Source: Prorocentrum cordatum
Taxonomy: Eukaryota; Sar; Dinophyceae; Prorocentrales; Prorocentraceae
Length of the DNA stretch: 64,000 nucleotides
Direction of reading: 5' to 3'
NCBI GenBank assembly: GCA_963575745.1
Contig: CAUYUJ010010380.1
Location: 261,001 to 325,000 of the forward strand
Shown here: in pieces, positions 27,728-47,781 of the stretch
How positions within the stretch are numbered: the first letter of the stretch is position 1
Layout of the letters: each line of letters opens with the position of its first letter
The notes under the pieces: generated by a model
The model's database searches: none
Told to the model about the DNA's origin: nothing
What the model saw: the letters and a program-made list of their open reading frames with translations, nothing else
Made by a program: the position numbers and the translations under genes

Positions 27728-27733
27728 CTTAGA
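27728..27733. other. Target-site duplication, left copy (CTTAGA)
   Basis: CTTAGA precedes the left LTR here and follows the right LTR at 47782-47787. A 5-6 bp duplication is normal for LTR-retrotransposon integration. The last A may belong to the LTR. Confidence 0.7.
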
Positions 27734-27998
27734 CTTTAAGGGTAGCTCTTTGGGAGGTGTTATATAGGATCGGGAGTATAGCTCGCGCGCCGTTGCCTTC
27801 GGCTCAAGGCACGCGCGCCCTATTTGCCCGGACACTGCTGGTGTTCGCTACGTGCTGGAAAGGTCATTACATCGATCTTATCCTATCTTATCCGTCCACT
27901 CCCCATACTGAACTACCCCAGCATGGCATTGGACGCTATCTGCCATCCGCTTCCCATGGAATCGGATGCTATTTGACTTACCATTGTCACTTCAGACT
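27734..27998 (+). repeat. 5' LTR of the copia-like element
   Basis: Aligns without gaps to 47517-47781, about 95% identical by eye. It contains TTATATAGG (27760), a possible promoter element, and a GC-rich inverted repeat centred on GCCTTCGGC at about 27800-27815 whose sequence CCGTTGCCTTCGGCTCAAG loosely resembles DinoSL. Confidence 0.9.
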
Positions 27999-28013: not shown

Positions 28014-29394
28014 CCGCACTCTCGTGTGGTCAGCTCTTGCTCTTCTTATCCTCACGCTATCCGGCACTATCTTCGTGACCAACTACCACCCTGCGCCACC
28101 ACTCCAACTACACTTACGAGGATCGAATCAAGAGCAAGAAGCAACACGAGAGGTACGACGTCTAGACAACAACATTGGTACCATATACGCTTCATCACTA
28201 CGCTACTACCAACCGCTCGGCAACGAGCCAAAATCGCAGTACTTGAAGCAGAGGCGGGGAGACCCGCAAGATAAAGCGCCTCGAAGATTCAACAAGGCGC
28301 TACCCCAGCGCGGCAACGCGCCTGATAACCACCCATATCTTCACAGCCTTGGGTTGGTCATCTTCGCCATCATATGGTTTGCGCTGGGGGCAACAATCGG
28401 ACACATGCGCCGAGGAGACAACAGCACCGATGGGCAAACTCATGGCCCATACTGGGACCCTCAAGGCAACGTACCTTTCCGCGAGTACGTTTATGAGGCC
28501 AACGCGTGGCTCAACGTCACAAGTGGACGCATGACGCCACAGGCCCAAGCAGCCGCCATACAACGCGGCCTGGGCGGCCTAGCGAGGACACTCGCCATGA
28601 GGGTACCACCTGACATTATAAACTACGGTGCGGACATCGGCGGCGTCCACACCGACCCAGTAACCTACATCATGTTCCTCTTAAGCATGAAGTTCGAACG
28701 CCTGGAAGATGAGCGCCAGCTCACTTCAGGCACACAGCTCATCGACTTTCATGTGCCTCACGGAGAACGAACCGATGTAACTCTCACTCGGTTCGAGATG
28801 GCCCGCCTTGAGGCGCAGCCGGTGGGGTTTGATCTTCCCAACTTCCAACTGCTCACTACTATCCTATTCCGCGCCCTAGGCGTCGGCAACCAGAGAGCCA
28901 CGCAACTCTTGCAGCCACTTAACCACCAAATGCCCCGAACACAACAACAATATGATGAGTTGTGCGAGAGGGTGCGTTCGATTGGCATTTGTCCGAACGG
29001 TCTCCTGGCAACAATAGGATCAGTATTTGGAACGGGAAGGGGAACTGGTAGTGGAAACTTCTATACTACCTTAACCACTGAAGCTCAGCCTGGCAACGGG
29101 CCCTCAAACATATGGGCCGACGATCCTGGAGAGTCTACTGCCCTACTAACAGGGGGTCGATCACAACCAAGCTGGGCAACCAGCCCCCCTCCTAGAGAAC
29201 CTCAACCACACCGTTCCCTATGGGGTGAAGCGAATCCCCTAAACGACGGTGTATCCACCTACCTAGGCAATGGCGATTTCAACTCCGGCACCGACACCGA
29301 CACCATATCATCAGATGGTATCGAACCCCTAGATTGGTCAGATATCATGCAAATGGAAGGTGACAATCAGCGTGCCGAACACCTGTTCTGGTAA
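28014..29394 (+). pseudogene. Gag (capsid) region of the copia-like element
   Basis: Gag would form the virus-like particle that packages element RNA. The frame is open from inside the LTR to 29394. The capsid-like core is at about 28460-28990: FREYVYEANAWLNVTSGRM, then TPQAQAAAIQRGLGGLARTL, then a helical stretch including TYIMFLLSMKFERLEDE. This matches the UBN2/retrotransposon-gag pattern in dinoflagellate copia proteins. A hydrophobic segment (LGLVIFAIIWFALGATIG, about 28340-28400) precedes it, unusual for Gag. Six GNRA hairpins lie inside. Confidence 0.7.
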
Positions 29395-29439
29395 TTACAA
29401 CGGGCAAAGCGGAGGTGGAGGAGGTTCACACGAAAACCA

Positions 29440-29862
29440 GTGCGTCGTGTTATGAGGAGGATACGGAGGAGCTTCAAAGGAGAAGGTAAAGGCAAACGGG
29501 GTCGCCGTAGGTTGAATGGACGAGGCATCCCGGCTTTCCTCCAGATGCTCTCAGATGATCAGTATGATGAGATATTTTTCGGGGGGAAAGGTCGTGGTAA
29601 AGGCCGTAGAGATACCTCAGGTAAAGGTAAAGGTAGGCGGGGAAACCCGCGAGGTAGAGACGGCCAGATCCTAGAGTGCCATGAGTGTGATAGTACCGAT
29701 CAGATTGTAAAAGACTGTCCAGCGAAGGGAAATGGAAAGGGCAGATCGACCGAAGTCCATTTCGGCTCAAGTGAACCAGTCATTGAATATCTGGGCCTCC
29801 AAGATTCTGAGGCCATGGAACAGATATTTTTCATTTGGGCCAGCAGCATGGCATTTGGATGA
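29440..29862 (+). pseudogene. Gag nucleocapsid: basic Gly/Lys/Arg region and damaged zinc knuckle
   Basis: The segment is rich in GKGKRGRR, as in nucleocapsid proteins that bind RNA. The zinc knuckle at 29677-29718 reads CHECDSTDQIVKDC. The pattern should be C-x2-C-x4-H-x4-C; the histidine position is Gln (CAG at 29701-29703), one base from His (CAC/CAT). Zinc binding is probably lost. A stop separates it from Gag. Confidence 0.75.
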
Positions 29863-32200
29863 GCTCGAGGCGTACGGCCACGGACTGTGCGCGTGCTACC
29901 TCGAGTACCTCCGCAGATTTGTTCTCGGAAATATCGAGCTTGCGCCTGTGGAGCATGGAACGCTGGGAAACCAGCCCTTATCTTTCTTCGACTGGATGTT
30001 CGGTAACCCAGGCAAAATCATGGCCTACGAGAGCAGTGACGAGGACGTCACTGTTGAGGCCTCGCCTTCGGAGGTTGACCACAACCTTCGACATCAACCC
30101 GACCTTATGCCTGGAAACAGGCCCACTCCAGTATATCCTCCAAACTATGCTGATCTGATGGAATTAGAATCCCAAGCGTTCACCGCGGGCGTGCCAGGGA
30201 ACCCATACGCACCACCTGGCACACTCGCACCAGGCGAGTACGGACCGCACACGATACTGCAGACTCTCATGCAGATGCACGCTGCACTGGTCGTAGCCTA
30301 TCCCGAGACCCAAGAGAGTGTCGAGAGTTGCCACATGATGCTACAAGACACCTGTGCTTGTGACGACTCGGAGCTAGTGTTAGCGGCTCTTACTCTTATC
30401 GACAGCGTGCACCCTGAGGACGCGCAGCGACATGCGTGGTATTCCAGGGGGGGAGACGGCGCCAAGCCCTTGAAAGGGCCATCTCCATGCGCGGCCAGGC
30501 TCTCCCTCCGCCGGGATGGTCTCCAGGCGGCGGGGCTACAGCCTAACCATACGGCCATGCGAAATAATATCGGGCAGCCTACGCTCGGTAACGAACCTGA
30601 GCCGACTACCGTACCGCCGACTCCGGGACAGCCAAGCGATGCTCAGACGCTGGTACAGCAGGGAAACCTGCCCGTCCCGGCTGGACCGATGACTGTCGTC
30701 ATCGGCAACCCTATGTCAGAAGATGAAGAGTGCGATGGATGTGGGATGTGCGAGGACGAGACCACCATCCCCATGATGGATGCCAATGGCGAAGACGAGG
30801 AGGTGGATTTCAGCCCCGACCGTCCAGACACACCACCACCTGCACAAGAACCAATTGTGCCAGACTCCAGTCAGCAGGGAGACCTGCCTGCCCAAGATGC
30901 GCCGCCTGCGGCCCCGCAGGAACCCCCGCCGGCTCCTGCTCAGGCTGCGTCGGCGGCTTCGTCTGATGGGCACGCCAGGAGGTCTCGCTCGCATCCACGC
31001 CTTAGGGAAGAACCTCGCCCGCAAGCACGGCTCCCCCGCGAATGGAGGCAAGCAGGCCCAACAGAGCATTTCGCTCGGCGGGGGGGTCAATTGCTCGCCC
31101 TAGGCGTCAACCGGGTGAGCACTCTGCCTTTGGCACAGGCAACCCAGCTTACAGGGATGCCCGAGGCAGGTCCATACGGGGTGGCTACCAGCTCGCGACG
31201 AACATTCGTCGTCAGTAGATAGAGGTGGTACGGACGCAGCTGCGAAATGTCATTGCGGCACGCAAGCTATACAGGCCCAACGCAGTCTGTGGGCCGTGCT
31301 CAGAGCCATTCCAGGAGCACAGGCCTGGGTGTCCTGTAGGGCTCAACGAGGGCTTGAGCCCGAATAGAGGCCGCACTCCTGCCAAGGACGGTCACCCACC
31401 GTTGGTTCCGACGACTCAAGCAGAGATCGACGAGATCAACCGTCGTCTCGGAACCACGGCTCATATGAGACCTATGGCCGAGGAGGTCCAGCCTCCGAGG
31501 GGACTGGTGCCTATGACCCAGGAAGAGAAAGATGCGCTCAATCGCCTTCCTGGAATGCGGGGAAACCCGCCTGGCGTCTCCAGTCAGGCCCAACAGCCAG
31601 AGATGATGGACGACGATGAACAGAAGGATCAGCGAGCCGCAGCAGATGCGGAGCGCAGGCGAGTGGCAGACGAACGCACCCGCGAGGCAACTCGCCAAAT
31701 GCTGCTGGAGTCCCAAAAGATCTATATGAAGGGGGCAAGAAAGCCCCCATTCCAACCGAAGGCCAAGAGCGAAACACCTGCACCCAGGACGCCTTCGGGG
31801 GAGAGACAGAAAACGTCAGCCCGCTCAGAGGAGTTTGGGTCAGGTGTGCAGATGGAGATGCCTCGTTCTGAAACGCCGAGGTCACCGACTAGAGCAACTC
31901 CGGCACAGAGACCCGACCCCAGGCAACAACCTCAGGACCCCGTGGAGATTCGTAGACGACCGCCTAGCCGTAGCGGCTCTATCGCCGGCAAGGCCAGGGC
32001 TTTCGAGCGCACAGGGTTTACCCCTACGCCGGCCTCGCCTGCGGCGGCACGCTCCAAGAGGTCTGAGGAAGGCATTCTATCTAGGGGTGCCTGGGTGCTT
32101 AAGATCAAGGGCAGCGCCAGCCGAGAAACACTGCGGGGAAACCCGCCAGGCGCTGCAGCTGCAGCATCCCCCCCCCCCCAGGAGCCGCAGCCTCTTCGGT
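29863..32200 (+). pseudogene. Pro/Glu-rich linker region of the copia polyprotein
   Basis: Two consecutive open frames (29732-31222 and 31225-32202). Most is low in order: Pro, Glu, Ala and Asp-rich runs around G-N-x-P motifs that correspond to GNRA hairpins. Small Cys patches appear (ECDGCGMCED near 30730; VCGPCSEPFQEHRPGC near 31290), possibly metal-binding. No enzyme domain recognised. Confidence 0.5.
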
Positions 32201-32259
32201 GACAGAGGCCCCTTTGCGGGGAAACCCGCCCGAGGATAAGCTGCACCACCCAGGGGGCA

Positions 32260-32984
32260 CTTCCTTTACTAGCGGGAGTCAGGCTTTGATCAATGATCGA
32301 CGTGCCCTGCGGAATCTTCCACCGATGCGCTCGGTGGAAGAGGCATTCACGGAGAGCTGCAGGCAGAAAGGTCTTGTCCCGAGACATAACCATACACTCA
32401 AGCAGCTCAGTAAATGCCTCAACAGGATCTGCAGACACGCGCCTGACAAACCACACAATGCCGCGTGGAGCCTTGAGACATTCGACGATCATGATGGATG
32501 GATCAATCTCGACGAGCTCGCACGCGAGCTTCCGCGGCGCAACGGACGTACTAGACAGGACGGGCATAACCCTAGGCTGGATGAGGCCAAGATCATCGCC
32601 GAGACCTTCTACGGCAGAACGGTTGACCAGATGGCCGCCATCATGATGGCGATCGTTCACGTCCGCGAGCCGGACGGCGAGGAGAAGCAGCGTCTCCAGT
32701 TTAAGGTCTTGGTGTGGGATTCTGGCAAATCCGACATATTCATCCGTGCCTCGCAAGGGCACTCGTGGACGCTCAAGGCCCCTTGGTCGTTGTACAAGTA
32801 CATTGTACTACACGACAATCCTGCCGGGAGACCGGCCCCATGCCCCGAGGTGGCCATGCATGGCACACGATGGACAGCCTTTGAGGGCATCATGTGGTAT
32901 GGCCTCTCTTGTCGTCAAGAACACAACACCAAGAAGAGAAGGGTCCACGGGAAAGCAATGGCGGAACCCAGAATATTTGGGTAA
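32260..32984 (+). pseudogene. Tpt1/KptA-like RNA 2'-phosphotransferase domain
   Basis: Tpt1/KptA enzymes remove the 2'-phosphate left at RNA splice junctions, using NAD+. The frame starting 32199 shows, in order, LSKCLNRICRHAP (family: an LS..LRH block with essential Arg-His), DDHDGWINLDELARE (the 'DGYV..DDLL' strand), KQRLQFKV (the 'KxRF' strand), FIRASQGHSW (the hallmark 'IRAxQGHS'), then EVAMHGTRWTAFEGIMWYGL (the 'HGT......I...GL' NAD-site block). The final R-H-H block is unclear (CRQEHNTKK). Five motifs in the right order make the call strong; activity is doubtful because the frame ends early. It sits between the Gag linker and the RING region. Confidence 0.75.
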
Positions 32985-34083
32985 TCGCCTTGCACGCGTC
33001 TCCACCGCCATAATGACGGCCCCGAACAGGTGGACCACTGTGGGCAGTGCTAGTGTCAAGCACAGATGGTCTCTTGACCGAGAGGCTAATGAGTCTCCTA
33101 CGGTTCATGGTCAGAGAGAAGTTGGGGACCATTACAGCCCAACAGTGCTGGGAAAACAGCCCGAGATCCACCAGATCCTTATGGTCAACGAGAGTGAGGC
33201 AGGAAGCGCGGCTCCAAGCCGTGCTCCAAGCCAAGGGCCTAGTGCCATATATTGGCAGGTCCTCAGCACCTCAGATCTGGATCAGATCGCGGCCGCTCTA
33301 AACCCTGAGCAGGTGGAACAGCTAGCGGACAGACTGTACCAGCAAGACCCCTGGGCCGCAGGCCAGGGAGCCATGTCCGCCATGGTGACGCGTAACCGTC
33401 AGGCCATGCAGGGAAACCTGCCCGTTAATGGTCTTAGACACGATATGCCCGAACCGCAGGGAGACCCGCAAACGTTCGGCCGCATCTTCGGAGAGCCTGC
33501 TCGATTTGAGCAGATGCCAGGGAGCCCCTCGCATAGCATGCACACACCGAGGGGCATGACCCCAGTGGCGACGCCACCAGCACAGTCTCCGTATGGGACT
33601 CCTGGTCGATCTGCCACGAATGGCACTCTCATGGAGCGAATCGCCGCGGCCAGAGCTGAGCATGGCACAGCTCTTCTGAACATGATGCCACCTGGCACGC
33701 CAACGAGTCTGCAGGGAAAGCTGCCCGGCACTCCAATACACCACCGACCTTTCGCTGGCCAAACTACCGCTGCTGGAGTGCCTGACGACTACCGCGCAAG
33801 GGTGGCAGCTGCGGTACAACAGGTGCAGAGTCACAACCTTCCCCACCCAAGTGGTCAGAGGTGGAGGCCAGCCTGGTCCTGGGAGCCAGAGGGTCCGAAT
33901 CCACGTGACCCTGCTCGGCAACGAGCCTTTATCCCGGCCTTCAATGCTCATCCGAGCATGGCTCAGGGCCAGAGGCCAGCACCAGCACCAATGGATCCGC
34001 CACTGTACCCAGACGGGTCTAGAGCCCCGAACAGATTTGTTCGCGAAATGGCGGATCAGTTTCATAGCCTCACGACTGCGCTG
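32985..34083 (+). pseudogene. Linker between Tpt1-like and RING modules
   Basis: Frames are broken at about 33000-33200 and then open to 34089. It is Pro/Gln/Gly-rich with ALNPEQVEQLADRLYQQDP near 33300 and several G-N/K-L-P hairpin sites (33408, 33711). No domain recognised. Confidence 0.45.
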
Positions 34084-34089
34084 CAGTGA

Positions 34090-35520
34090 TCAGCCCATGT
34101 ATCCGCACATGGCTTTCATGCCTGCACCGACAACGCCAGAGGTGGCCGTCCAGCCTACTGCCCATTCAATATCATCAGGCAGTAGAGGAGCACCAGACTA
34201 CATCAGGCAGACGTACCACACTCAACAGGCGTGCTTTAGGCGCAGGCAGGCAGTACAGAGCGCACGTGACCAAGCACGCGCATCCGCACTTGAGGTCGCG
34301 AGGAACAGAGGCTCACCCATGCGAGGAAACTCGCCGGCCGTGTCGCCCGCAGCCTCCGCAACGGCAGCTCCTTCAGCAGTGGTTGCCGCAGCACCGGAGG
34401 CATTGGCTCCCGCAGGAGACCCTCCAGCTGCTTTCCTGGGCTCCGAGTCAGTCCTGGAGCGGCAGCGGCGGGTGTACCCTAGGGCGGCAGATGTGGAAAT
34501 CTATATTGGGATGGAAGACACCTGCGCGGTATGCCTCGAGGAGTTTCAGCCGAGGGAGAGTATCTACCGCTTGAGGTGCAACCACTTGTTCCACGAGGAG
34601 TGCTGGGACTCGAATGCGGTGGGCCATGCTGCGAATCAGCGAGAAGGAGATCCACAACAACCAGTATGTGCTATCTGCCGAGCGCCAGGCATCATAGCGT
34701 CATCGTTTCCATGGACCGGCTCCTACACTCAGGCCCCCGAACAGGCAGCGAGGGAGCTGCGGGAGTTGAGGAGCATGGTGGAGGAGATGACAGCCAATAT
34801 GCTGGACAGGCAGACAGCACAGCCCCAGCAGCGGGGAAACCCGCCGGAGGAAGTGAGGTCGCCGATGGAGACGGGATATTTCGACCAGCTTATCCCGACG
34901 ACGGCACCTCAGCAGGGAAACCTGCCGAACACTCCACCTGTGCCGATCCTTCCGACTCAATACGAGCCAGGAGTCGGGCAGGTCGCTCCTCCGATGTCTC
35001 CCCAGAGTGGGGGTGGGGCCGAGCTGCCACTGGACCCTGAACAGCTGCGAGAACTGCACGTCCGCCACTTCCAGACCCAGATGGGCAATGCACACACTAC
35101 GTTCATGTTGGACGCCAATGCTCCTGAGACTGAGAACTCGTCGTTGGATCTCTCAGACTCATCAGTGGCGACAGCGGCAACAGCAGTCAGGGCCGTCGAG
35201 CTCTCAGCAACGAACAGTGAGTTCGACGAGTGGTTGCATTGCAGGGACCACCTTACGAATGATGGATTACAGGACATCGCCCTTCATTCGTACTTGACGC
35301 TGACGCGGCGTACTACCCGCGAACAGTACACGAGCATACGTGATGAGCATGCCCACTGGCAGGAGGAACAGGGCGCCCAAGCCCAGAACGTGTCGTACTT
35401 CCAGTACATCGATCTGGCACGAATGGCCGCAGGAAGGCCAGGTGCCAGCACGATGCGGGGAAACCCGCCAAGAAGTACGACCGAACTGCGGGGAAACCCG
35501 CCAGACAGCACAGCCGGCAC
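34090..35520 (+). pseudogene. RING-H2 finger module in the copia polyprotein
   Basis: RING-H2 fingers recruit ubiquitin-conjugating enzymes. At 34523-34678 the translation has CAVC, then 14 residues, CNHLFHEEC, then 21 residues, and CAIC. This is C-x2-C...C-x-H-x2-H-x2-C...C-x2-C, the complete eight-ligand RING-H2 set with a conserved Trp after the sixth ligand. The frame (33851-36163) is continuous with the downstream protease, so the finger belongs to the element's polyprotein and is intact. Its substrate is unknown. Confidence 0.8.
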
Positions 35521-36163
35521 GTCAGAGACAGTGCACATCAAGCAGCCTAGTAAGACCTTTCTTGAGGATGGTGGAAACTCAATCCTCATAGACGTGGGCT
35601 CGAAGATCAACAGAATGGGAGAAAATGCGAGCCGCAAGTTCGTTCAGGCTGCTGGGGCACATAATCGTCCTTGTACGTTTGAACCTCGTTCTCGTTTAAA
35701 CATCAACGGGGTAGGCGAGGGGTCGGGCCCAGCTGATACCGCGGGCACCTTCAGCATTGCCTGCGCGTGCCAGGGTTCGACCCAGCTCGACTCGTACAAG
35801 ACAAATATGGTGTCAGGCTGTGGCAAGGACCTGCCAGCTATCCTGAGCCTCGACAGTGCGCAGGACAAGCGCCCTTTTATTGTGCTGGAGCGAGGCCAGG
35901 AGAAGCTGATATTCCCTGGGAAGGGACAGGTCAAGATGGAACTCCCCGAGGGCTCCAAGATCATGCCAACAACGAAGTTGCCATCAGGGGATCTGTCAAT
36001 CAGGTGCGATCGATTCGGAGCCGCGGGGCAACCCGCCTCGAGCACAAGTACCACATCGTTCCAGACGGTGCTGACAGGCGAGCCGACCCCTGCGCAAGAG
36101 CGCCAACAATTGCAGGGCAACCTGCCTCAGGGGTTGCTCGAGACACTCGCCAAACGACGATGA
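35521..36163 (+). pseudogene. Aspartic protease (retropepsin-like) region
   Basis: The protease would cut the polyprotein. SILIDVGSKINRMGENASRKF at 35580-35640 matches the active-site strand, with D-V-G in place of D-S/T-G; the Asp is kept. Later blocks (FSIACACQGSTQLDSY, SGCGKDLPAILSLDS) are the flap and second-half features seen in dinoflagellate copia proteases. The open frame ends at 36163. Confidence 0.65.
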
Positions 36164-37524
36164 GAGGCGACAGCATCGATGATCTGGAGACGTTCGATTG
36201 CTTCGTAGCCAGGACACTGGCCCAGCATGGCGGACTTGTACCCATGGATGCTGTACGGTCCCGCTGGAAGATAGTGATGGGATACTCGAGTCATGAGCTG
36301 CAGACGGTTAACGACGCAAGGTCGAAAGGCCTAGTGGAGCAGCTGATGGACACTCCATCCATGCTGGCTACGTTTGCGGAGCAATCCGCCTCTGAGGCTA
36401 CCGCGCGCTGCAGCGCTGAGCTCCAGCATCTGAGAGAAGCCCAGATGCTGGCAGACGTTGCAGGCGCATCTTCTTCATCTTGAAGATGGCAGGGCGACGC
36501 TGCCCCCTCGTCGCCTTGCCTAATGACCGATAGGCCAGGGGGTAACAAGGACAGCGGGGCAACCTGCCATAGCAAAAGAGCTTTCGTCATCGAAGATACG
36601 AGAGAGGCTTGCGCCGACCTCCGCACCCGAGGTTATATATGTGATCGCATTTCCCACAATGAACTTATGACGACTGTGGGCACAGATTACCTGGGTGCGG
36701 TGATCAGTGGGGACTACGCTCTAATATGGGTCAGTACCCCGGGTGACTGGTATGTACGAACCCCAGGAGAGAGAATAGCCCCACACTGTTCTCGTATTCA
36801 AAACCTTCTGAGAAAAGCCAAGAAGCTCCGCATGAAAATCATAGCGATTGGCCCCCCAGGATACGTTTGGAAGTTATCCCCAATACGTGGTACTCTGGAA
36901 GATCTCAAGTTGACGGTAGTAAGAATACGGTTGTGTAATTTCGGTATCAGGTTTTATATGCAAGACAATACACCGAGTGGTACCTACATGCAGGTCGCCA
37001 CATCAATACCGATTAGTTTTAAGTTGTGGGCATGTACGTGCAAACTGGCGATACCACAACATGTGTTGGATTGGTACGGCCAGACGGTGCGACATGCCGA
37101 ATGGAGAGCTCAGACACGCATCACACTCATCCGTTACCTCAACGACAAAATCCTGGGCAGCAACACTACGCACGGAAACGCGCCGATATATTTGAACACC
37201 TATACACGTACGGATCACAACATTCATCACTATGTGACGACCAACCAAGGAGGACCGAAATGGTCTGATGTCATCCGACGTGTAACAATCAACCTGGATA
37301 CCAACACGGTTATACAGGATATCGCAGTAGCCGATCAACCAACAGGATATGATTGGCACGCACCACTACCTACAAGGGTTGCCAACATCAGTACACGGAT
37401 GTACTGGCAGCCCGAGGAACCGGTCATACTCGGAAACGAGCCTACTCAATCACCACAGAAACCTAGACGCGTCATCATAGATGACTGTCCTTCTCCCCTC
37501 CCGACTCTGGAGATTGAAGCATAA
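36164..37524 (+). pseudogene. Copia polyprotein segment of unknown fold
   Basis: The open frame 36523-37524 encodes about 330 residues of normal complexity: WVSTPGDWYVRTPGER, IAIGPPGYVWKLSPI, RIRLCNFGIRFYMQDN, PSGTYMQVATS, and HVLDWYGQTVRHAEWR. It has the look of a conserved enzyme-like domain, perhaps the front half of the methyltransferase-like segment that follows, but I cannot name it. The 36164-36520 stretch holds a short helical frame. Confidence 0.5.
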
Positions 37525-37526
37525 CG

Positions 37527-37823
37527 ATGGGCACACAGACCGGTGAACAAGACGAGCAAGTCTTACCTACGGAGTCGCGTATCAAACAGAAGGAAAGGCT
37601 CAAAGCCGAAAAGGAAGCAGGCATCAAGCCTCGCCGCATCAAAAAGCACGTTGAAGAAGGAAACGATGATTGCGGTGACGACTTGTCGGGACTCGGACAG
37701 GATCTTATGGCGACCTGGAGCGCTGACGTCCCTGTTGAGCTGATATGCTCAGGTGAGGATGATGACCTGTTCCTACCCCCCCCACATCTATTCCCGACAC
37801 ACACGCTGACATATATAGCATAG
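37527..37823 (+). pseudogene. Charged linker of the copia polyprotein
   Basis: A Lys/Glu-rich helix (QKERLKAEKEAGIKPRRIKK) is followed by an acidic stretch. It probably joins the flanking segments. Confidence 0.4.
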
Positions 37824-37849
37824 TAGCTACGCTATGCTATGGTCACAAT

Positions 37850-38116
37850 AATTGCGTGGATATGTTGGAGCTTTGTGAAGGTGAGGGTGGTATTCCAGAG
37901 CTTGCCTTCTCAAGGGGTCTTTCCTCAGGAGGTAACTTAGACAAGACCACGCGCGTCGACCTGGGAGATCCCTCGGTGCAGCGAGCTGTAGATCATTACT
38001 TCGCAGTATGCCACGTACGAGTAGCCATGCTACAGCCCAGTTGCCGCACCACAGGACCACCATCCGACTACAACTACAAAGTCAACCACAGCACTTGGGA
38101 ACAGCATCATAAATAA
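37850..38116 (+). pseudogene. Methyltransferase-like segment (C5-cytosine MTase resemblance)
   Basis: The translation reads DMLELCEGEGGIPELAFSRG, then GGNLDKTTRVDLGDP, then VAMLQPSCRTTGPPS. The order resembles C5-MTase motif I (ELFAGxGG), an acidic motif after strand 2, and motif IV (PPCQxxS) with the catalytic Cys in P-S-C. It stops at 38116; related sequence may continue in other frames to about 38390. Another Rossmann-fold SAM enzyme, or chance, remains possible. Confidence 0.4.
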
Positions 38117-38395
38117 GATTTGCCACGCATAACTTATTGTGGCAAAATAGCTGTTACTCAAGATAATGCACGGAGGTGGTCTATACGCGAACAACCCACA
38201 GGAACATGGGTGGATTATATTTCCCCATGGAAAGAACTTGCCAACTGACCACATATCACAACCGTACACATCGACCAATGTGCGACGGGACTCAAAGATA
38301 CGGCTGGTGACTATATCAAGAAACCGACAAATATCACCAGCAACGACGAGACGATTCTTAAACCCTTTGAGCGACTCAAATGCAACGGTCAGCAT

Positions 38396-40696
38396 GTGCA
38401 CGCACAACCGTGCAACAGGGAGCTTTCACTGGCACAAAAATACACTCGACGACTGCAGTCCGCCTTTGTGGAAGCTGTTTACTTGGCGAAAGCCATTGAC
38501 ACCACGCGCGGAGACGCGCCTACACGCACTGCGCATACTTACCCTGCTGACCTTCCTGATCTAGCTGAACCAGGAGAAGGTATGAGACGCATCGGCGATC
38601 GCATCACCCCGAAAGTGGCTACATGCCCAGCATGCATCGGCAATGTCCGAAAGGACAGTCCCAGCCACAACAGAGATCCTACACAGTGTAAGTATCATGA
38701 TTCTATCTCTGCATATTGGCCATGCCCTGCATGCCAAAGGGACCTTACGAGAAGCAAGGGTGTTATGAACCACCTCGACACTGAACCCGGCAAATGCCGT
38801 TGTGCTGAGCCGTTCAAACTCCCAGATGATCATGATCCCGAGGGCAACAATGTGCCAGCTTGGTGGAAACCCTTACCCAAGCCTGGGGAGGGCCAAGCTT
38901 CAGCATCGGGCGGCCGTCAGGGCGCTCACGCCAGGCCACCACGACCACGAGCCCTTGGGAACACTGATCCTACATCTGGCGCCAGCAGTTACGATGTACT
39001 GCGAGACGCGCCCGAGCGTGGAAACACGCCTTCCGCGTCTTCAGGCGAGCCGCCACAAGTAGCGGCCCGCCGTGGTCGCCTACAAGGCGCACCACCACCA
39101 CCAGATGCAGTTGACGAAGGAGACCGACTGCGGAGAGCCACAAGGAACCCTCTTGCCTCAACCGGCTCGGGGGCTCCACGACTGCCCGACTGGACGAGAC
39201 TTGACATCCAACACAGTCTGCAAAACCTCCGTAGTCACGAACCTCACGTAGTCAAAAAGGAACTCCGTAAACTGCACTTGCGGTGGTACCATGCGAAGGA
39301 ATCCAAGATGAGGCTAATCCTAGACAAAGTGGACCTGGACAACGTTCGACTAAATATGACCAAAGAAATCTGTGACGCATGTCGGGAATGTAGAGCATGG
39401 GAACGTCCAGGTAATTCTACGCTACCTTCCGTAAGCCTCCCTGGAAATTGGCTTGACGAAGGTGAAGTACATCTCATGTTCTACAAGAAACGAACCATAT
39501 TTCACAGTATGGACCGGTGTATCCGCCTGGCAGCAGGCCAAGAGATTCCAGATACAGAACGTGACACTATCCTCGACGCCTACCACTACTGGTGGATTGC
39601 CTATCATGGACCCTTCAAAGACTTGTATTCAGATGGAGAAGGCGCCCTCAACAATGACACTGCCAAGGCCATGATGGCGAACAAGGGTGCGACACTTCGT
39701 ATCCGAGCGCCTAGCCAACACGCGACCTCGATCGAGTCACGCAACGGCATTCGTAGGGGCACCCCCCATATGATTGAGGAAGAGCTGAATAGACACAACA
39801 TCCCTGTTGTATTCACTAGAGTATTGGCTGAAGGCATCTTCGTCACTAACGCTTTCACGTTTTACAACGGAGTATCGCCATACCAAGCACACACTGGGCG
39901 ACAGCCCTCCTTTCTTCCTGACCTCGACACCCTTGACTTCCCTAAGGGACCCGAGACGTCAGGCCACGAACGAGAACGCCGCGTGAGGGAAGTTGGCCTG
40001 GAAGCAATAACACAAGCCACGGCGGTAGCTAAGACAAATCGTGCTCTCAGGGCTAAGACGGCCCCAGATGGTGCTCGCCTTTACTCAGCAGGGGACTTGG
40101 TCGACTATCACCGACCTACAGCCACTAAGGACGACCATGGAGGCTGGAAAGGCCCGTTTCCTGTGATCCGTAACGCGCCTGAACGAGGACACGTCGTCGT
40201 CAAGGCAGGATCACGTGAGGTAATTGTAATGTACCTTGATGCTCGACACACGCTATACATTGAATGCCTCCTTACCAGGGAACTTGGCATGGACAACATG
40301 GCCATGCAAACCGTCCTTACATTTGTGGCACACCTTGGTGCAGGGAAACCTGCCAAAGTCTTTGGCTATATTCCAGGTTATAAGGGAAATCTCAATCTGT
40401 CGGACGACAGCAAGTTCCACCCGCGCGTACACCTTCCACTACAGTATCTCGTGCGAAATTATTTCCGAGTTGAACGCGTAGTAGCCGTGAGACTGGCCCA
40501 GAGCGTGTCTAGTCTACCTGCAGTTAAGTACGCCACCGGGTCTACACTGATCCACTACGACAACGACGTCAACCCAGCCTTCCACTACTATGAGTGTGTG
40601 GGCACCGGCTTGAACATCTGTCAAATCACTGGTAGCACTCACTCCCAGACTCATCCAGTGCCTGACGTCACATGTCCCTTCCCTAGGATTGCATGA
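38396..40696 (+). pseudogene. Integrase region of the copia-like element
   Basis: Integrase inserts the cDNA copy. The 766-codon frame contains a Cys pattern near the N-end (CPACIGN, CPACQRD), the pre-integrase zinc segment LHLRWYH...CDACREC at about 39270-39390, and the catalytic core: EVHLMFYKK, LYSDGEGALNND and SIESRNG. The second Asp (39632-39634) and the Glu (39734-39736) are kept, but the first catalytic Asp is replaced by His (CAT at 39470-39472). The core continues with AFTFYNGVSPYQAHTGRQPSF, typical of copia elements. Frame intact, enzyme predicted inactive. Confidence 0.8.
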
Positions 40697-40850
40697 CGAC
40701 CTTGCCAAGTATCAGCACTTGGGCACAACATCTGGAGGACATGACCAGCCTGGAGACAGGCCTCCACCAGACACCCCAGGTGCTTCATCACCAAGTTAAG
40801 GTCGCCTGTCTACAATCTACGAAGAAAACGAGGAACATGACATCGAGGCT
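40697..40850 (+). other. Spacer between integrase and RT frames
   Basis: Contains a perfect hairpin GCCTG-GAGA-CAGGC at 40748-40761 outside any long open frame. Confidence 0.6.
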
Positions 40851-41556
40851 ATGATGATGGAGGAGTGGTACGACGAACTACGCATGGACCTTCATCCCAC
40901 AACGGTTACCGACGATCATCTCTACTGCGTCCCAACAACCATGCTGCCCGACCAATGTGTTCTGGGCTCAGCATCCGTGGGCGAGGAAGATATCATAGTG
41001 TCGGAAACGCTCGGAGACGAGCCTGAACCACAAGAGCCTTGTCTTATCTCTAGATGCTCGACTACACCTGACGAGGGCTATTCTCTTGACAGTGATGAAC
41101 ATGGTCCTTATGTTGAGTTATGTTTCACACCAGAAATATCAAAGGTAGCGTTGCATCAGACCCAACTTGCACGGCTTGAAACTGACATGGTCGCAACGAT
41201 GAGAGTATATGTATCATCGGCTGCTAAACGTGCTGTGGTAGTCAAGGAAGACGAGGCTTCCCTAAAGAGGCTAGTGAAGCTTTGTACACCGAACTCAAGA
41301 TCTGGCTTGATAACCGGCGCTTCGAGATGTCCGACCTATCTAAAGCTTCCAACATCATGACATCCAGATATGTATACAAGTGGAAGTTTGTGAAGGTAGG
41401 CACCGAGAATGTTAAGACCATCCGTCTCAGACCTGTCCTTCGTGGGTTCATGGACACGGAGGCGTTTGATGTAGAAACCTTCTCAGGAACAACTGCTCGA
41501 AGACAGTCCCAGAGGCTCCTGGCAAGTCAGGCGGCACGCCATCCAGAATGGATCTT
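40851..41556 (+). pseudogene. Reverse transcriptase, N-terminal part (left of nested insertion)
   Basis: An acidic linker leads into the copia RT: NIMTSRYVYKWKFVKV, then IRLRPVLRGFMDTEAFD, then SGTTARRQSQRLLASQAARH and PEWI, after which the 4.15-kb insertion begins. A frameshift lies at about 41280. The protein would resume with LASMDIDKAFLKG at 45714. Confidence 0.75.
41551..41556. other. Target-site duplication of the nested insertion (GATCTT, left)
   Basis: GATCTT here and at 45708-45713. Removing 41557-45713 restores a continuous RT reading frame across W-I-L-A-S. Confidence 0.8.
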
Positions 41557-43694
41557 TCGGGCCCCTCCCCCACCAGGAAACAAAACCAGGGCCTCGACAA
41601 ATTTGTTTTTTTTTTTTTTTGCCATATTGATTGGTGGGAACAAATGCGGTCGTCGCCGCGCGCTTGCCCTGATTTAGCAATGTCGGTCGACGGACGCACG
41701 CGAAGCGCGCGAGTTTCCTTCTCATAATTGTTTCTGCCGTGTGCCGCGTTTTCATGACGCACGCGCGCGCCTTGCCTTTTCAGACTCAATCGCTCGTACT
41801 AGCGTGCGGACCGCATGCAGGCCGCAGTCCACGCGCGCTAGCGCGGCGCACCGCAGCGCGCTTCGAAACGATGTTGGGCACAATGGCATTTTTACCGCAA
41901 CGCCGCGAATTTGTTAGCCACCCCGCGCGGGCGACGCCGAACGCATGCGTGTCCCACCGCATGTGCGCCGCCAGAGCTAATTTTCCGATTTCGATTGTGA
42001 ATTGTATCGCGGGCGCGTGTCAGGCGCCCTCGACGTGCCATGTAGGCCCGCGCATTGGGCGCCCACGAATCATGTCGGAAACATGTCATCTTACTACTCT
42101 CGCGTTCGCCGGGCGACTCGCGGTCCTAACGGGCGCGCGGTAGCATTCTGCGGCGAAGGGGGGGGGCGTGGCGGCGCGGCGGGGGAGGGAGAGGAGGGGG
42201 GGGGAGATTGGCAGGAGGAGGAGGAGGAAAATGACGAGGAGGAGGAAGAGAGCGAGGGGACATGGTGGCGGGCATCCCCGACTTCAGCTTGCCTGGCCCA
42301 ACCCTTCGGGGGGGGCGTCGTTCGGCCGGGGCGAGCGCTGCGTGGAGTTCGCCCCAGGAAGCTCCCATCGGAAATTGGGGGGGGGGAAGGCGTTGGCGTT
42401 CCGATGCCTGTGGCGAACCCGCCGCTATGCGGGCGCTGTGGGTCGCAAGCCTTTTGGATGTTGGCGCAGGTTTCGTTTTTTTTGTTTTTTTGCGTGGGGG
42501 GATTTCCAAGATGCCCTGGGTGCTTTCGTGCAAAACTTGCAAAGCCTCGTGGACGTTCTCGGCGGCGCCATGGGCCTTCAGGTGGCACTCGTGGGAGCCT
42601 CGCAGGGGCGTCGAGGAGAAATATGGGCCCTGCTGCGGACAAGTTGGGGCTGGTGGTTGCAACGATGTTTCACGGTTTTCCCTCATTCCAACCCTCTCCC
42701 TTTATCGCCCTTTCTTCCTCCTCCCTACTACTTCGTTCACCCTCCCCCTGCCCCATCCCTCCCCTTTTCCTTGGCTTTCCCCCTCCCTGGCCCTCCCTCC
42801 CCCTTTTCCACGTCTTCCCCTCCCCCTCCCACCTCGCCCTACTAATTCGCCCCCCCTCCTTCCGGCCCCATCGTTTCTCTTCCCCTTCCCCCTTCCTCGT
42901 CGTCGTCCCCCTCCTTCCTCCCTCTTCTCCGCGTTTTCCGTTCCTGCCCCTCCCTGTATAAATTCTTTCTTTCGGCGCGCCCAACACATCGTTCCGCGGC
43001 CCCAAAGGAGGCCCCGCCGGAGGCGCCAGTGGCAGGGCCCACAAGGCGACGCCGCTCCATTTGAGCGCACCCATCAAACGGCTTGCGGCCCCGTAGGGAT
43101 CTCCACCGCAGACCCCAGCGGCAAGGTCCGCCATCTTGACAGCAGGGGGGAACTCTCAGGGCCCCTCTTGGAGCTCTCTTGGGGCCTTCTTGGGGTTATC
43201 TTGGTGCCCTTTCGGTGTCTTCAGAGGCGCGTGGAGAGCCCCGGGGCGGCTCCGAGAGGGCCCCGCGAGGGGCCCTGAGCGTCCCCGGCCCCCCTCCACC
43301 ACCCTCATTATCCTTCCCCCTCCTTTTCCCCGTTTCATCCACGCCTTCCGACTCATCCTCCTCTTCGCCGCATTGCCCCCCCCCCCCCCCCCTCATTCGC
43401 GCGCAGCCCCCATTCCACCCCTCCCCGCCAGCCCTCCTGCCAAAGGAACCTGGCTGTCGCTTTCGGCGACGCACCAGCGCCTTCGGCGAACCGCGCTGCC
43501 ACGAAAGCGCTGCGTTGCGCGGCGCGACCTCGTGGATGCGCCAGATCGCTTCGACAAACCGACAAAATGCCCACCCGGACCGTCGAACAAAATTGCCGCG
43601 GGGCCCAGGGGGGCGCATCCTAATTGTGAAATTACAATGAATCCGCCCCGCAGCGAAAGCCAGGAACGATTTTGTCGCGACACTTTCTTGGGTC

Positions 43695-43860
43695 GGTCCG
43701 ATTTTTTTTTGTCGCGGCCGTCGTTTTTTTTTGTCGGCGCACTTTTTTTTTGTCCGCCCATTTTGTCGGGCCGATTTTTTTGTCGGGGTTATTTTTTTTG
43801 TCGGGGCGGTTCGGTTTTTTGTCGGCCAATTTTGTCGGGGCGATCGTTTTCTGTCGGCTG
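43695..43860 (+). repeat. Array of T-runs linked by GTCGG
   Basis: About nine units of TTTTTTTTGTCGG(G/C) with variable T length and 8-20 bp spacers (GCGGCC, GCACT, GGTTA). Confidence 0.85.
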
Positions 43861-44139
43861 GGCGCCGCCCGCAGCGCATAGGCGCAGGGAGGCCGACGGG
43901 TCGAATGGCAGCAAGGGCGCGCGCGCGCAACGCAGAGGGACCGCAATAGGGAACGCGAGCCAGGGCAGGGCAAAAACAGCACGGGGCGGATGCGAGAGCG
44001 GCGGCAAGAGCAGATGATGACGACATGAGAAAGACATTTGCTTGTAGAGTACGTGTCCCGACGGATCCACGCACGGCGGGCGCCGAAGTGATCGCGGCAC
44101 TTTTGGCCCCCCATCTGTAACCTCGATGCCAGCATCACA

Positions 44140-44345
44140 AACGTACGCATGATGCGTCGTGGGCACAATGGTAGCGAAGTCCGCCCCGCGCGCGACGCAG
44201 CAAGCAGGCGACGTAACTTAATTCTTTCGCGCCGAAGAGCGGGAGGCCACGCATGTCAAGAAACTCAAAGAATCCCTCGCGGTCGCCCACGGGGCCTCGC
44301 AAAGGCCTATTAGGACCTGGACTGAGATAAGCCTGGCGAAACACC
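44140..44345 (-). other. Possible captured exon, second piece
   Basis: On the minus strand the frame reads GDREGFFEFLDMRGLPLFGAK then ELSYVACLLRRARGGLRYHC, of normal protein composition, unlike the surrounding repeats. It might join to the piece at 44700-45020 across the satellite array. No family recognised. Confidence 0.3.
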
Positions 44346-44384
44346 CAACCATATGCAGCTGTGGGTACCAAGTGGGGCCACGAT

Positions 44385-44695
44385 TGCGTTGGGGGTGCGC
44401 CAAGATGGGGCGGCGCCGCCATGTGGACCACGTTACTAGGGCCTCCGGTGGAGCTCCATGCGGGGCCGCGAACCGAGCGAAGGGTGCGCCCACATGGGGC
44501 GCAGCCGCTATGTAGACCTGCCACTGGCGCCGTCAGTGGAGCTCCATGTGGGACCACGAACCGTGCGAGGGGTGCGCCCACATGGGCGGCACCGCCATGG
44601 GGCCATGCCGCCGGGGCCTTCGGGGGAGCCCCATGTGGGACCACGAAACGCCTGAGGGGTGCGCCCACATGAGGCGGCGCCGCCACGTGGACCCC
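44385..44695 (+). repeat. 89-bp satellite family, short array (+)
   Basis: About four units of 87-90 bp. Unit landmarks: CACATGGGGCGGC, GGAGCTCCATG and GGGACCACGAACCG. The reverse complement of this unit makes up the larger array at 56080-57130. Confidence 0.8.
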
Positions 44696-44699
44696 GAGC

Positions 44700-45020
44700 C
44701 AGCATGGATCCTGGCAGATCGGCGGGCCTGGCGAAAGCATGCAAGGTATCCAGGAATTTCGGGTCCTGTCCGAGCCCATCGATATCCTCCTGCGTGAGTG
44801 CATAACCTTCCTCGCAGTCATGGTCGGCCCACGCGGCGCCAAAATAATTGCCCTGCCTGGCCCACTCGCGCGCCAGAATATTAGCAGGGGCCATTCCACC
44901 ATACCTGGTGTAGTGGAAGTTCTTCTGTTTCGGGAACCCGTACTGGTCGCAAAAGTTCACGGGGAAGCCTGGGTTTGCAAACACGGCAGCACAATGTATT
45001 GCGTTCTTGCCCGCCGCCAC
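44700..45020 (-). other. Possible captured exon, first piece
   Basis: The minus-strand frame encodes AIHCAAVFANPGFPVNFCDQ, YGFPKQKNFHYTRYGGMAPA and NYFGAAWADHDCEEGYALTQ, then DIDGLGQDPKFLDTLHAF. Its composition and even residue usage look like a real globular protein, in contrast with the flanking repeats. I do not recognise the family. It could be a gene fragment carried by the insertion. Confidence 0.4.
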
Positions 45021-45707
45021 GTTGCCGACGCCGCCCCGCTGTCTCGCGCGAAAGTACGTCTCGCGTGATCGCGTCTCTCTGGATGCACTGCGCGGTTCTC
45101 ATTATGGATCTGCGTCCCCGAGAATTTCCAGAGGTGCGCCTGGCGACCTGCAGCTTTGCACAACCAGTTGCCACCGCGCCGCGAATTCAGGCGATGCCAC
45201 CGCCCTCGAGCACGCGCGCGCGCACCCGCGAACCCACGCGTTTGTAGGCTAGCGCGCGCAAGCACGCGCGTCGCGTTTGCTTGTGTACTTTTGCGTTCAC
45301 CATGCTGTTGTGCGCTGTAGTGTCGCATGGGGCTCGCGCGTGGTTGCGCGACCTTCAATGTGCCATTGAACGCAAGGGCGCCTTTGATGTGGCTGTCGCA
45401 ATGCCACTTGCTCCAATGTGTTTGTTCGATTAGCATTGCTACCGCTGTCGTTGGCGCGGCGGTTCCTGATCGCAACGTCGCGATTGGTAGGCAATTCGGT
45501 CCGCGCGCTTTCGCGCCGAACGCTGATATCGTGATCCCCATCGGGGCATCAGTTTGCAGCAAGGAGCATCGCGCGGGCGCTCGCGTTCACGCGTTCGGTC
45601 AGCCGAGATTCGTCCAACGCTATACCGATCGTTTGGCGTTTAAATGTTTATCTTTTTGAATTACGTTTTGTCGTCGAAAGCTTCGCCAGTAGAATAGCAT
45701 TACTGAG

Positions 45708-46109
45708 ATCTTAGCATCCATGGATATCGACAAAGCGTTCCTCAAAGGTCTGACCTATGAGGAACTTGCTCATGCCACCGGCGAGGGAACTCGCACGGTT
45801 TGCTTCGCTATTCCACCAGGAAGCGCCCAGGTGCTTCGTACACTACCCGGCTTCTCTTCTTACGATGAAAGCCGACACTGCCTCAGGTGCCTCAAGCCAG
45901 GGACGGGTGCAAAGGACGCCCCAAGAGCGTTCCCCCTCAAGCTTCGTACGACCACACGAGCTATAGGCCTCGCACCGACCAGTTACGATTCTGAGTTTGA
46001 ATTCAGTCAAGATCTGTTAACGGCACAACATGCCGACGATATCAACGTGACAGGCCTAGAGAAAAACGTAGATGACTATGTACAACGTGTCGAAAAAAGC
46101 GTTTGGTAA
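45708..46109 (+). pseudogene. Reverse transcriptase, catalytic part (right of nested insertion)
   Basis: Resumes with LASMDIDKAFLKG (motif A; D-x-x-A-F-L-x-G), then GAKDAPRAFPLKL, then QHADDINVTG (motif C). The two catalytic aspartates are at 46035-46040; the residue before them is Ala where Val or Met is usual. The frame stops at 46109 and continues in another. Confidence 0.8.
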
Positions 46110-47096
46110 ATGCAAGCTCAACAAACATTATTATACGAACTGCGCCGTTCGCTACACCAAAAATGAATTGATCATGGATCAGGACGAGTACATTAAACAA
46201 CGACGTCCTATCACACACCCTGAACTTACGGGAGCGGCGGCTGACGCCAAAGCTACCAAACTCATCACCGACATGTTCGTTAGCCTGCGAGGAGCTGTCG
46301 CCTGTGCCCTTCTTACTCAAGTCTGGCTTATGGTGTATGTAGTCTCTCTCCAGAAGATCCAAGAGCCCACCAACTTACAAGTCAGACGACTGAATGCTGC
46401 GACGCGAAAGCTGATCAGCAGCCCGAAACGCATCACTTTCCCTCGGATGAAACCGACGAACGAAGTAGACATACACAGTGATTCGGGGTATCGGAAGCTC
46501 ACCGGTGAGGAAGACGATGAGACCAAGGGCTACGGTATCCGTGGGGCTAACGTATTACGGCGAGGAAACTCGCCTCAAGGCAAATCCGCCATCCACCTTT
46601 GCGACGGACTATGCAATCACACCGATTGCAGGTGAGGTCCAGCTATGCCGCTGAGGCCCTTGCAGCTGCACACAACCTTGATGAATGCTACCCCACGCTC
46701 ATCACTCTCCACGAGCTCAAGGCAGGGGCACTTACTCCACGACAGCTACGAGATATGCGTGAAGTTGGAGGCCTAGCCATTAAAGTATCCCTTATTATAG
46801 ACGCTGAGTCTGTATACGAATCGCTATCCAGCAAAGATCTTAAGATACCGACGGAACGGACTTTGCTGGGACATATCAGCTGGATACGTGAGTTTATGGA
46901 TATAGGTATAATGCACAACGCACAGTGGTGTGGTACTAGAGATATGACCGCAGATGGGCATACAAAGGGGAGTATCGATCGGGAGCTGCTTTTGGAAGTG
47001 ATGTCAGGCACTCAGTCATTTAAGTATGACGTGAAGCAGTTTGTTCCCTTTCGGGGTCCTGAGGACAGAAACAAGTCTAAGCCAAATCAGTTTTAG
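46110..47096 (+). pseudogene. Connection and RNase H domain of the copia-like element
   Basis: RNase H removes the RNA strand during cDNA synthesis. The connection region reads NCAVRYTKNELIMDQDEYIK, RPITHPELTGA and LQKIQEPTNLQVRRLNA. RNase H motifs follow: VDIHSDSGYRKL (first Asp), SYAAEALAAAHN (Glu), SLIIDAESVYES (Asp) and CGTRDMTADGHTKGSID (last Asp). All acidic residues seem kept, but one frameshift lies near 46610. Ends with a stop at 47096. Confidence 0.75.
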
Positions 47097-47459
47097 TCTG
47101 TCCCTGTTGCCCCCGCGGTCCAGTCTGCCAGCACGGGCGCCTAATACAGAGGCGCCCTCCTAGTTGCTCGGAAACGAGCCTTACTTTTCACGCTCGGCAA
47201 CAAGCCTGTTCAGATCGATTCAGGCTCTTGCTGTAATACCCTTTTGCTCGGGGAGGTATAGCCTGTTTGGCTTACCTCTCGCCGGGCCGATAGCCCTTTG
47301 ATGTCCAAGGGGCTATTTTGCGTATGCGTGAAAATGCTTTGCGAGGACACTCGCCTTACAGTCTGGTGTTCGGCCAGACTGTACGTAATGTTTTTCTTGC
47401 AAACAGTCGCGCGCGCGGCCTTTGTGGAGCCTAACGGCTGCGCGGCTATACTCACCGTC

Positions 47460-47514
<55 letters not shown>
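47097..47514 (+). other. Element 3' non-coding region with poly-C tract
   Basis: Contains three hairpins of the GNRA family (47166, 47192, 47341) outside coding DNA. It ends in 54 consecutive C at 47461-47514, directly before the 3' LTR, where a purine-rich tract would be expected on this strand. Confidence 0.7.
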
Positions 47515-47515
<1 letters not shown>

Positions 47516-47516
47516 A

Positions 47517-47781
47517 TTTTAAGGGTAGCTCTTTGGGAGATGTTATATAGGATCGGGAGTATAGCTCGCGCGCCGTTGCCTTCGGCTCAAGGCACGCGCG
47601 CCCTATTTGCCCGGACACTGCTGGTGTTCGCTATGCGCTGGAAAGATCATTGCATCGATCGTATCCTATCTTATCCGTCCACTCCCCATACTGAACTACC
47701 CCAGCATGGCATTGGACGCTATCTGCCATCCGCTTCCCATGGAGTCGGATGCGATTTGGCTTACCACAGTCACTTCAGACT
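47517..47781 (+). repeat. 3' LTR of the copia-like element
   Basis: Pairs with 27734-27998. It is followed by CTTAGA (47782-47787), the right target-site copy. Confidence 0.9.

Follow-up and report, generated by a model that had tools for sequence, protein, structure and literature searches.

Viral dispersed packaging signals are degenerate and overlap coding sequence. The packaging stem-loops of retroviruses and retrotransposons, together with lambda boxB, are small hairpins, some with GNRA-like loops, whose binding protein is basic or carries a zinc knuckle; they are present once or a few times per RNA at defined places. Mitochondrial double-hairpin elements and Rickettsia palindromic elements are mobile and insert at positions that vary, and published accounts of these and of repetitive hairpin-forming mitochondrial elements describe short repeated hairpins, some within genes. 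For MS2, satellite tobacco necrosis virus (STNV), parechovirus and enterovirus-E, published reports describe several related stem-loops along the genomic RNA that contact coat protein (PMC6281560, PMC5431903, PMC4751978, PMC7793301, PMC3593212). Here we describe a family of 14-nt hairpins in a copia-type long terminal repeat (LTR) retrotransposon of Prorocentrum cordatum, located in a window (the whole stretch of DNA analysed) of 64,000 nt, positions 261,001 to 325,000 of contig CAUYUJ010010380.1. These hairpins are under selection as a folded nucleic acid, with both purifying selection and compensatory change.

Like the viral signals, the element has multiple common stem-loops along its RNA, above chance, and structure and loop are kept among relatives (in clan A, the window type, and genome-wide; more weakly in clan C, defined below). 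Unlike them, the hairpins reside in a cellular LTR retrotransposon, the unit seems less variable (14 nt, with foot, closing pair and loop frame all fixed), and positions turn over between clans. The family differs from the mitochondrial and Rickettsia elements in being positionally stable within a clan and in showing compensatory change in its stems, and from retroviral packaging stem-loops and boxB in number, with about 35 hairpins over 16 kb. The host element shares with dinoflagellate copia-type LTR retrotransposons its LTRs and, putatively, a gag with a weakly matched zinc knuckle and an integrase region preceding reverse transcriptase, and departs from them in its length, in a long first open reading frame (ORF1) with Tpt1-like and RING domains, and in the hairpins. 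Such hairpins are unreported in the portion of the open literature covered, as is Tpt1 in a retrotransposon; the main text of PMC11453091 does not contain the word 'hairpin'.

Each unit consists of a stem, in which GC pairs form the foot and are followed by two pairs that are free to vary and a closing G-C pair, and of a G-N-N-A loop; it is read on the sense strand. The pattern GCNNGGNRACNNGC has 40 matches on the plus strand of the window and 0 on the minus strand; 38 of the 40 lie within 28215-47192, and the remaining two (23071, 51974) are unpaired. Counting GNCA loops as well brings the perfect 5-bp hairpins to 34; all are sense (+) and inside the element, and the number matches that of the full-stem hairpins between the LTRs given by an earlier sequence-only reading of the window. 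That reading saw none in the LTRs, the nested insertion or the rest of the window; two pattern matches fall in the insertion (42108 and 45138), and neither these nor the two unpaired ones above are fully paired. It had recorded two GACA loops; three are present (28582, 36208, 47341). In the following list, rows that mention no mismatch, G.U pair or A-T pair belong to the perfect 5-bp set, and labels such as L045 denote related copies.

28215..28228, plus strand, GCTCG-GCAA-CGAGC; unchanged in L045-L047
28254..28267, plus strand, GCGGG-GAGA-CCCGC; compensatory GCGGA..TCCGC in L049-L051
28308..28321, plus strand, GCGCG-GCAA-CGCGC; lost in L045 via point changes
28582..28595, plus strand, GCGAG-GACA-CTCGC; codon phase 1
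29088..29101, plus strand, GCCTG-GCAA-CGGGC; contains one G.U pair
29171..29184, plus strand, GCTGG-GCAA-CCAGC; codon phase 2
29637..29650, plus strand, GCGGG-GAAA-CCCGC
29962..29975, plus strand, GCTGG-GAAA-CCAGC; compensatory GCTCG..CGAGC in L045
30109..30122, plus strand, GCCTG-GAAA-CAGGC
30583..30596, plus strand, hairpin with GTAA loop; one mismatch in the window copy, perfect in L046 and L047
30658..30671, plus strand, GCAGG-GAAA-CCTGC
30874..30887, plus strand, GCAGG-GAGA-CCTGC
31557..31570, plus strand, GCGGG-GAAA-CCCGC; compensatory GCGAG..CTCGC in L045
31682..31695, plus strand, GCGAG-GCAA-CTCGC; codon phase 2
32133..32146, plus strand, GCGGG-GAAA-CCCGC
32216..32229, plus strand, GCGGG-GAAA-CCCGC
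32823..32836, plus strand, GCCGG-GAGA-CCGGC; within the Tpt1-like domain, codon phase 1 in L045
33147..33160, plus strand, one-mismatch hairpin in the window; perfect in L045 and L046
33408..33421, plus strand, GCAGG-GAAA-CCTGC; pairs kept in L045, loop A lost there
33456..33469, plus strand, GCAGG-GAGA-CCCGC; one mismatch
33711..33724, plus strand, one-mismatch hairpin in the window; perfect in L045, L046 and L047
33913..33926, plus strand, GCTCG-GCAA-CGAGC
34321..34334, plus strand, GCGAG-GAAA-CTCGC
34831..34844, plus strand, GCGGG-GAAA-CCCGC; GCAGG-GGCA-CCTGC in L045, compensatory with the loop changed as well
34912..34925, plus strand, GCAGG-GAAA-CCTGC; removed in L045 by a deletion much longer than 14 nt
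35455..35468, plus strand, GCGGG-GAAA-CCCGC
35488..35501, plus strand, GCGGG-GAAA-CCCGC
36023..36036, plus strand, GCGGG-GCAA-CCCGC; codon phase 1
36112..36125, plus strand, GCAGG-GCAA-CCTGC
36208..36221, plus strand, GCCAG-GACA-CTGGC
36376..36389, plus strand, GCGGA-GCAA-TCCGC; additional full hairpin, closed by an A-T pair
36554..36567, plus strand, GCGGG-GCAA-CCTGC; contains one G.U pair
37170..37183, plus strand, GCACG-GAAA-CGCGC; one mismatch
38506..38519, plus strand, GCGCG-GAGA-CGCGC
39016..39029, plus strand, GCGTG-GAAA-CACGC
40340..40353, plus strand, GCAGG-GAAA-CCTGC; codon phase 1 (AGKPA), GCGGG..CCCGC in clan B with the peptide unchanged, a synonymous compensatory change
40748..40761, plus strand, GCCTG-GAGA-CAGGC; coding
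41009..41022, plus strand, GCTCG-GAGA-CGAGC; aligned to clan B GCAAG-GCCA-CTTGC beside an alignment gap
45781..45794, plus strand, GCGAG-GGAA-CTCGC
46560..46573, plus strand, GCGAG-GAAA-CTCGC; compensatory GCGTG-GCCA-CACGC in clan B
47166..47179, plus strand, GCTCG-GAAA-CGAGC; 3' non-coding, 72 nt after the stop, present in 4/4 other copies
47192..47205, plus strand, GCTCG-GCAA-CAAGC; 3' non-coding, one mismatch, imperfect in 4/4 other copies too
47341..47354, plus strand, GCGAG-GACA-CTCGC; 3' non-coding, about 247 nt after the stop, GAAA in 3/4 other copies and altered in the fourth

Among the GNRA sites of the element outside the nested insertion, stem length is bimodal (3-4 bp at seven sites, exactly 5 bp at 33 and 6 bp at one), and the 5-bp peak is not seen on the minus strand or in the rest of the window. 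Dinucleotide shuffles gave a mean of 0.01 and a maximum of 1 (200 shuffles) against the 34 observed. Synonymous-codon shuffles of eleven ORFs gave a mean of 1.4 and a maximum of 5 (500 shuffles) against 32 observed, which represent 29 distinct hairpins since the ORFs overlap and three are counted twice, in shuffles and observed sequence alike. Chance and base composition are ruled out as the source of the hairpins by the shuffles and the stem-length distribution. In local RNA folding with a context of 75 nt on either side, P exceeds 0.5 for 30 of the 34 stems on the sense strand and for 19 on the antisense. Searching 26500-48500 against Rfam returned 0 matches up to E=1.

Relatives from one genome were compared as clan A (the window type), clan B (C1:2045.5-2061.7 kb and C2) and clan C (L043 and L052-L059); the complete elements compared were the window copy for A and one for B, with a 10 kb stretch for C, and as copies are related, counts over copies are not counts of independent events. 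Between the window and L045, which are 76.8% identical over 7,775 aligned bases, all five pairs are retained at 22 of 24 hairpins. Fifteen of the 24 are letter-identical, compared with 1 of 34 controls that share the GGN[AGC]AC core but have at most three pairs (Fisher p=5.7e-7) and with 5.6% of all 14-mers. The two that are not kept were changed by point changes (28308) or a long deletion (34912). Identity by column is 94.0% in hairpins and 75.9% elsewhere, and it drops immediately outside the 14 nt at 21 sites, which were picked as perfect in both copies so that the inside value is biased upwards. Across four clan A copies, 27 sites are perfect in at least one copy and 18 of these in all four, and the window's one-mismatch sites 30583, 33147 and 33711 are perfect in two or three other copies. 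At the integrase loci (both strands counted), 26/30 retain all five local hairpins.

Stem changes are also matched across the helix. Matched double changes are found at 29962, 31557, 34831 (with a changed loop) and 28254, at clan C column 3466, where the loop G is lost in two of four paired copies, and between clans A and B at 40340, where the peptide is AGKPA in both, and 46560; site 41009 is similar but lies next to a gap. Genome-wide, pairing TC/GA arms are enriched (6,025 vs 848 in the control), whereas mispaired TC/CT arms are not (678 vs 636), a comparison of non-independent copies that shows association rather than significance; the mispaired result covers the TC/CT half of a 2x2 design whose other half would be GCAGGGNRACCTGC and GCAGGGNRACGAGC. 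The matched double changes and the conservation in relatives uphold the claim, made from the window alone, of real covariation and selection on a folded nucleic acid. The synonymous shuffle, the density elsewhere in the window and pairing loss in relatives, which had been named in advance as ways to overturn that claim, did not do so.

Peptide and reading phase vary between sites and lineages. The usual reading is x-G-N-x-P in phase 3 for clan A and A-G-x-P-A in phase 1 for clan B, and L045 has hairpins in all three codon phases. Four copies had been placed outside coding DNA; this is right for 47166, 47192 and 47341, and wrong for 40748, which is coding (phase 3) in 5/5 uninterrupted copies checked. 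Two of the 3' non-coding copies are perfect, the first being found in 4/4 other copies and the second in 3/4, and in L062 an earlier stop precedes the 3' hairpins.

Loop letters distinguish the lineages. GNNA hairpins in sense versus antisense number 35 vs 0 in clan A, 38 vs 4 in clan B and 8 vs 1 in clan C (10 kb), with about 0.1 in shuffles, and full clan A and B elements carry 34-38 units each. Loop base 3 is A or G in 32/35 hairpins of clan A and C in 31/38 of clan B (R vs C, p=1.4e-11, with sites not all independent and tandem units in clan B). As the clan B loop C appears in phase 1 and also in phase 3 (QGHLP, RGHPP), loop choice is made at the nucleic-acid level. Positions, by comparison, turn over: B alignments cover 22 A hairpins, several of them in gaps or poorly aligned stretches, and a B hairpin stands at the same place in four and a codon off in one more. 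Hairpin numbers are similar (35 vs 38) despite these mostly different places. Between two clan B copies, tandem units of 24 and 30 nt vary, as does one further unit. Among the four clan A copies, few as they are, no exact 14-15 nt insertion was found at the 27 hairpin sites.

The hairpins are not confined to one retroelement, as had been proposed: related copies genome-wide and all three clans examined carry them. Among 8,202 first-look candidates for the integrase region, at least 132 scored as relatives, all except the window copy 90-92% identical. Genome-wide, GCGGGGNNACCCGC has 30,980 occurrences versus 3,390 for its reversed control, and among 100 places listed most cluster on one strand. 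Other hairpin types were also encountered. In clan B, L010 has three tandem 15-nt units at C1:2055923-2055966 with stem GCGGA/TCCGC and loops TCCT, TCCC and TCTC. At clan C column 2015, L052-L059 share a conserved hairpin GRGTC-GCAA-GACYC; its stem differs between L052 and L054 by a paired change, and other copies have G.U pairs. The minus strand of L042 (G000:C19:58000-67999) has tandem 33-nt units with GCGGG-G(C/T)TA-CCCGC hairpins in an ORF reading AGLPA and, by eye, GCAGG..CCTGC and GCTGG..CCAGC variants; this ORF lies, by eye, downstream of another element, one with a zinc knuckle, that is on the opposite strand.

The host element is about 16 kb long once a nested insertion (about 4 kb) is subtracted. 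Its other features are:

27732..27998, plus strand, 5' LTR; 96% identical to 47515-47781
32679..32924, plus strand, matched part of a Tpt1/KptA RNA 2'-phosphotransferase domain (Pfam PF01885)
34517..34681, plus strand, RING finger in ORF1; kept in clan B too
38249..40696, plus strand, ORF with the presumed integrase region
41600..45690, strand unassigned, nested insertion with approximate bounds; 0 fully paired family hairpins inside
47515..47781, plus strand, 3' LTR; pair of the 5' LTR at 27732-27998

The reading frames of the window copy are broken, so that its ORFs are pieces. The element codes for a predicted Tpt1/KptA-type RNA 2'-phosphotransferase domain within ORF1, with PF01885 matches of 70.7 bits (E=2e-19) in L045, 56.3 bits (5e-15) in clan B and 43.0 bits (7e-11) in the window, above the curated cut-off of 26. 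The match is longer in L045 and clan B than in the window copy (regions: window 32199-32984; L045:4804-7470; L010:2-4813), and solved homologues are the tRNA 2'-phosphotransferase 1 chains 7yw3 and 7yw2. In a Pfam scan PF01885 was not matched in the clan C ORF, though clan C has an alignable stretch. A connection between this domain and the hairpins is speculation. The integrase and RNase H labels are our assumption from element order and known motifs, Pfam giving no match for either. The integrase ORF found no relative among 8000 candidates scored from 5.8 billion proteins, nor among viral contigs or phages. The zinc knuckle in the Gag ORF is a weak match (E=0.0013) just below the Pfam cut-off, as is RVT_2 in clan B (E=7e-4, below cut-off), which is located downstream of the integrase region. 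A Gag search matched proteins P0001, P0002 and P0003; by eye and unaligned, P0002 and P0003 contain S/R-K-A-T-C, and P0002 also two A-G-Q-P-A, resembling clan C hairpin peptides. The clan B region preceding the integrase reads VDMLELCGGKGGIS..QPSCRTTG (window 37830-38250; L010:4817-8608), whose motifs are reminiscent of a cytosine-5 methyltransferase; Pfam matched nothing in L010:4817-8608. A run of about 50 C at 47461-47515, directly before the 3' LTR, is absent at the aligned place in four relatives. In the 4.13 Gb host genome, the dinoflagellate spliced-leader sequence occurs 14,218 times and its reversed control 0 times, which identifies the host as a dinoflagellate.

We favour, with chances we would call about even, the explanation that this copia-type LTR retrotransposon lineage marks its genomic RNA with many scattered and mutually redundant recognition signals, the hairpins, and itself encodes the protein that reads them, packaging being the most likely purpose. 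The reader would act in trans and diverge along with its element, and the loop switch between clans A and B argues for a reader of this kind; the first candidate would be the element's own Gag/zinc-knuckle protein, weak as the zinc-knuckle match is. With many sites along its RNA, the element could select and condense its own ~16-kb genomic RNA into virus-like particles, and sites may be gained and lost over long times if number counts rather than place. Packaging signals and a protein docking site, both among the roles first suggested for the hairpins, fit best.

Several points weigh against this explanation. In known retroelements, most packaging signals lie close to the 5' end. Hairpins are scarcer in clan C (8 GNNA in 10 kb), which also has GNNG loops, and at six shared sites perfect GNNA hairpins are present in 7, 3, 5, 4, 2 and 1 of its 8 copies (66-91% identical), the remaining copies having one mismatch, a G.U pair or a different loop. 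Tandem duplication accounts for part of the clan B hairpin count. Additionally, simple RNA stability should tolerate G.U pairs, yet these are not favoured over A.C mismatches: site variants comprise 9 G.U, 13 A.C and 15 other, from alignments of which two have three sequences in common and in which minus-strand integrase loci were aligned in sense. Many of the mismatches may reflect decay following insertion, and the missing G.U preference suggests a reader needing regular pairs, post-insertion decay or a DNA role.

Selection and covariation are compatible with any trans-acting reader, and the hairpins occupy coding and 3' non-coding parts alike. They could hence serve another RNA step through a host or element protein, such as translation or export of the long unspliced RNA from the nucleus, its stability, or its escape from silencing or trans-splicing; we think this rather unlikely, as a lineage-specific loop switch is more readily explained if the element encodes its reader than if a single host protein serves every lineage. 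Self-spreading mini-hairpins of the mitochondrial double-hairpin or Rickettsia palindromic type, inserting into the retroelement, were the first role listed by the sequence-only reading and are now disfavoured and improbable. The many near-identical stems of clan B, with 24- and 30-nt tandem units that vary between two copies, would suit them, but these differences resemble ordinary tandem duplication. Within clan A, by contrast, positions are stable at 23% divergence (22/24), the one clean absence, at 34912, reflects a deletion of much more than 14 nt, no precise unit insertion is seen at the 27 sites of four copies, and stems are diverse; spreading alone predicts no compensatory change.

An architectural role, in which contacts between GNRA loops and receptors elsewhere in the molecule compact the RNA, strikes us as no more probable than self-spreading hairpins, and perhaps slightly less so. 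GNRA loops are classic tertiary-contact loops and local folding of the sense RNA gives the proposed hairpins, but the loops of clan B are mostly GNCA. For the tetraloop-receptor option raised earlier, the classical 11-nt receptor is lacking, with 0 pairs of the receptor arms CCTAAG/TATGG within 60 nt in the element, this being the only receptor type looked for. Folding at the DNA level, as hairpins or cruciforms of the element or its cDNA, would agree with Watson-Crick pairing without an excess of G.U; the identity of the GNNA loop on the sense strand and the better folding of sense than antisense RNA make such a DNA-level feature very improbable. There is next to no chance that a repeated protein motif (G-N-x-P or A-G-x-P-A) mimics a hairpin. 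Most A copies do share one phase and most B copies another, but the synonymous shuffles (1.4 vs 32), the three phases, the kept 3' non-coding copies and the unenriched mispaired arms exclude a protein motif as the cause. The view that no such motif suffices, first argued from codon phases and non-coding copies, is thereby borne out.

Recognition by an element-encoded protein, the explanation favoured above, can be extended into a proposal that we hold only tentatively and consider possible rather than probable: each retrotransposon lineage may write its own multi-copy hairpin code across its whole genome, including the coding parts, with loop letters that co-diverge with the element-encoded reader and sort RNAs into self and non-self within one nucleus where very many copies compete, and the Tpt1-type RNA-end enzyme may share that machinery. 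Even for viruses, proof of dispersed RNA signals is difficult to obtain, as individual sites are weak and redundant. Here, a single genome supplies a great many natural copies at a range of distances, which show covariation, loop switching and position turnover together and make statistical and short-RNA tests feasible. To our knowledge, this would be the first clear case of a multi-copy RNA code in an LTR retrotransposon and, if true, would offer a possible basis for the sorting of element RNAs within a very large genome.

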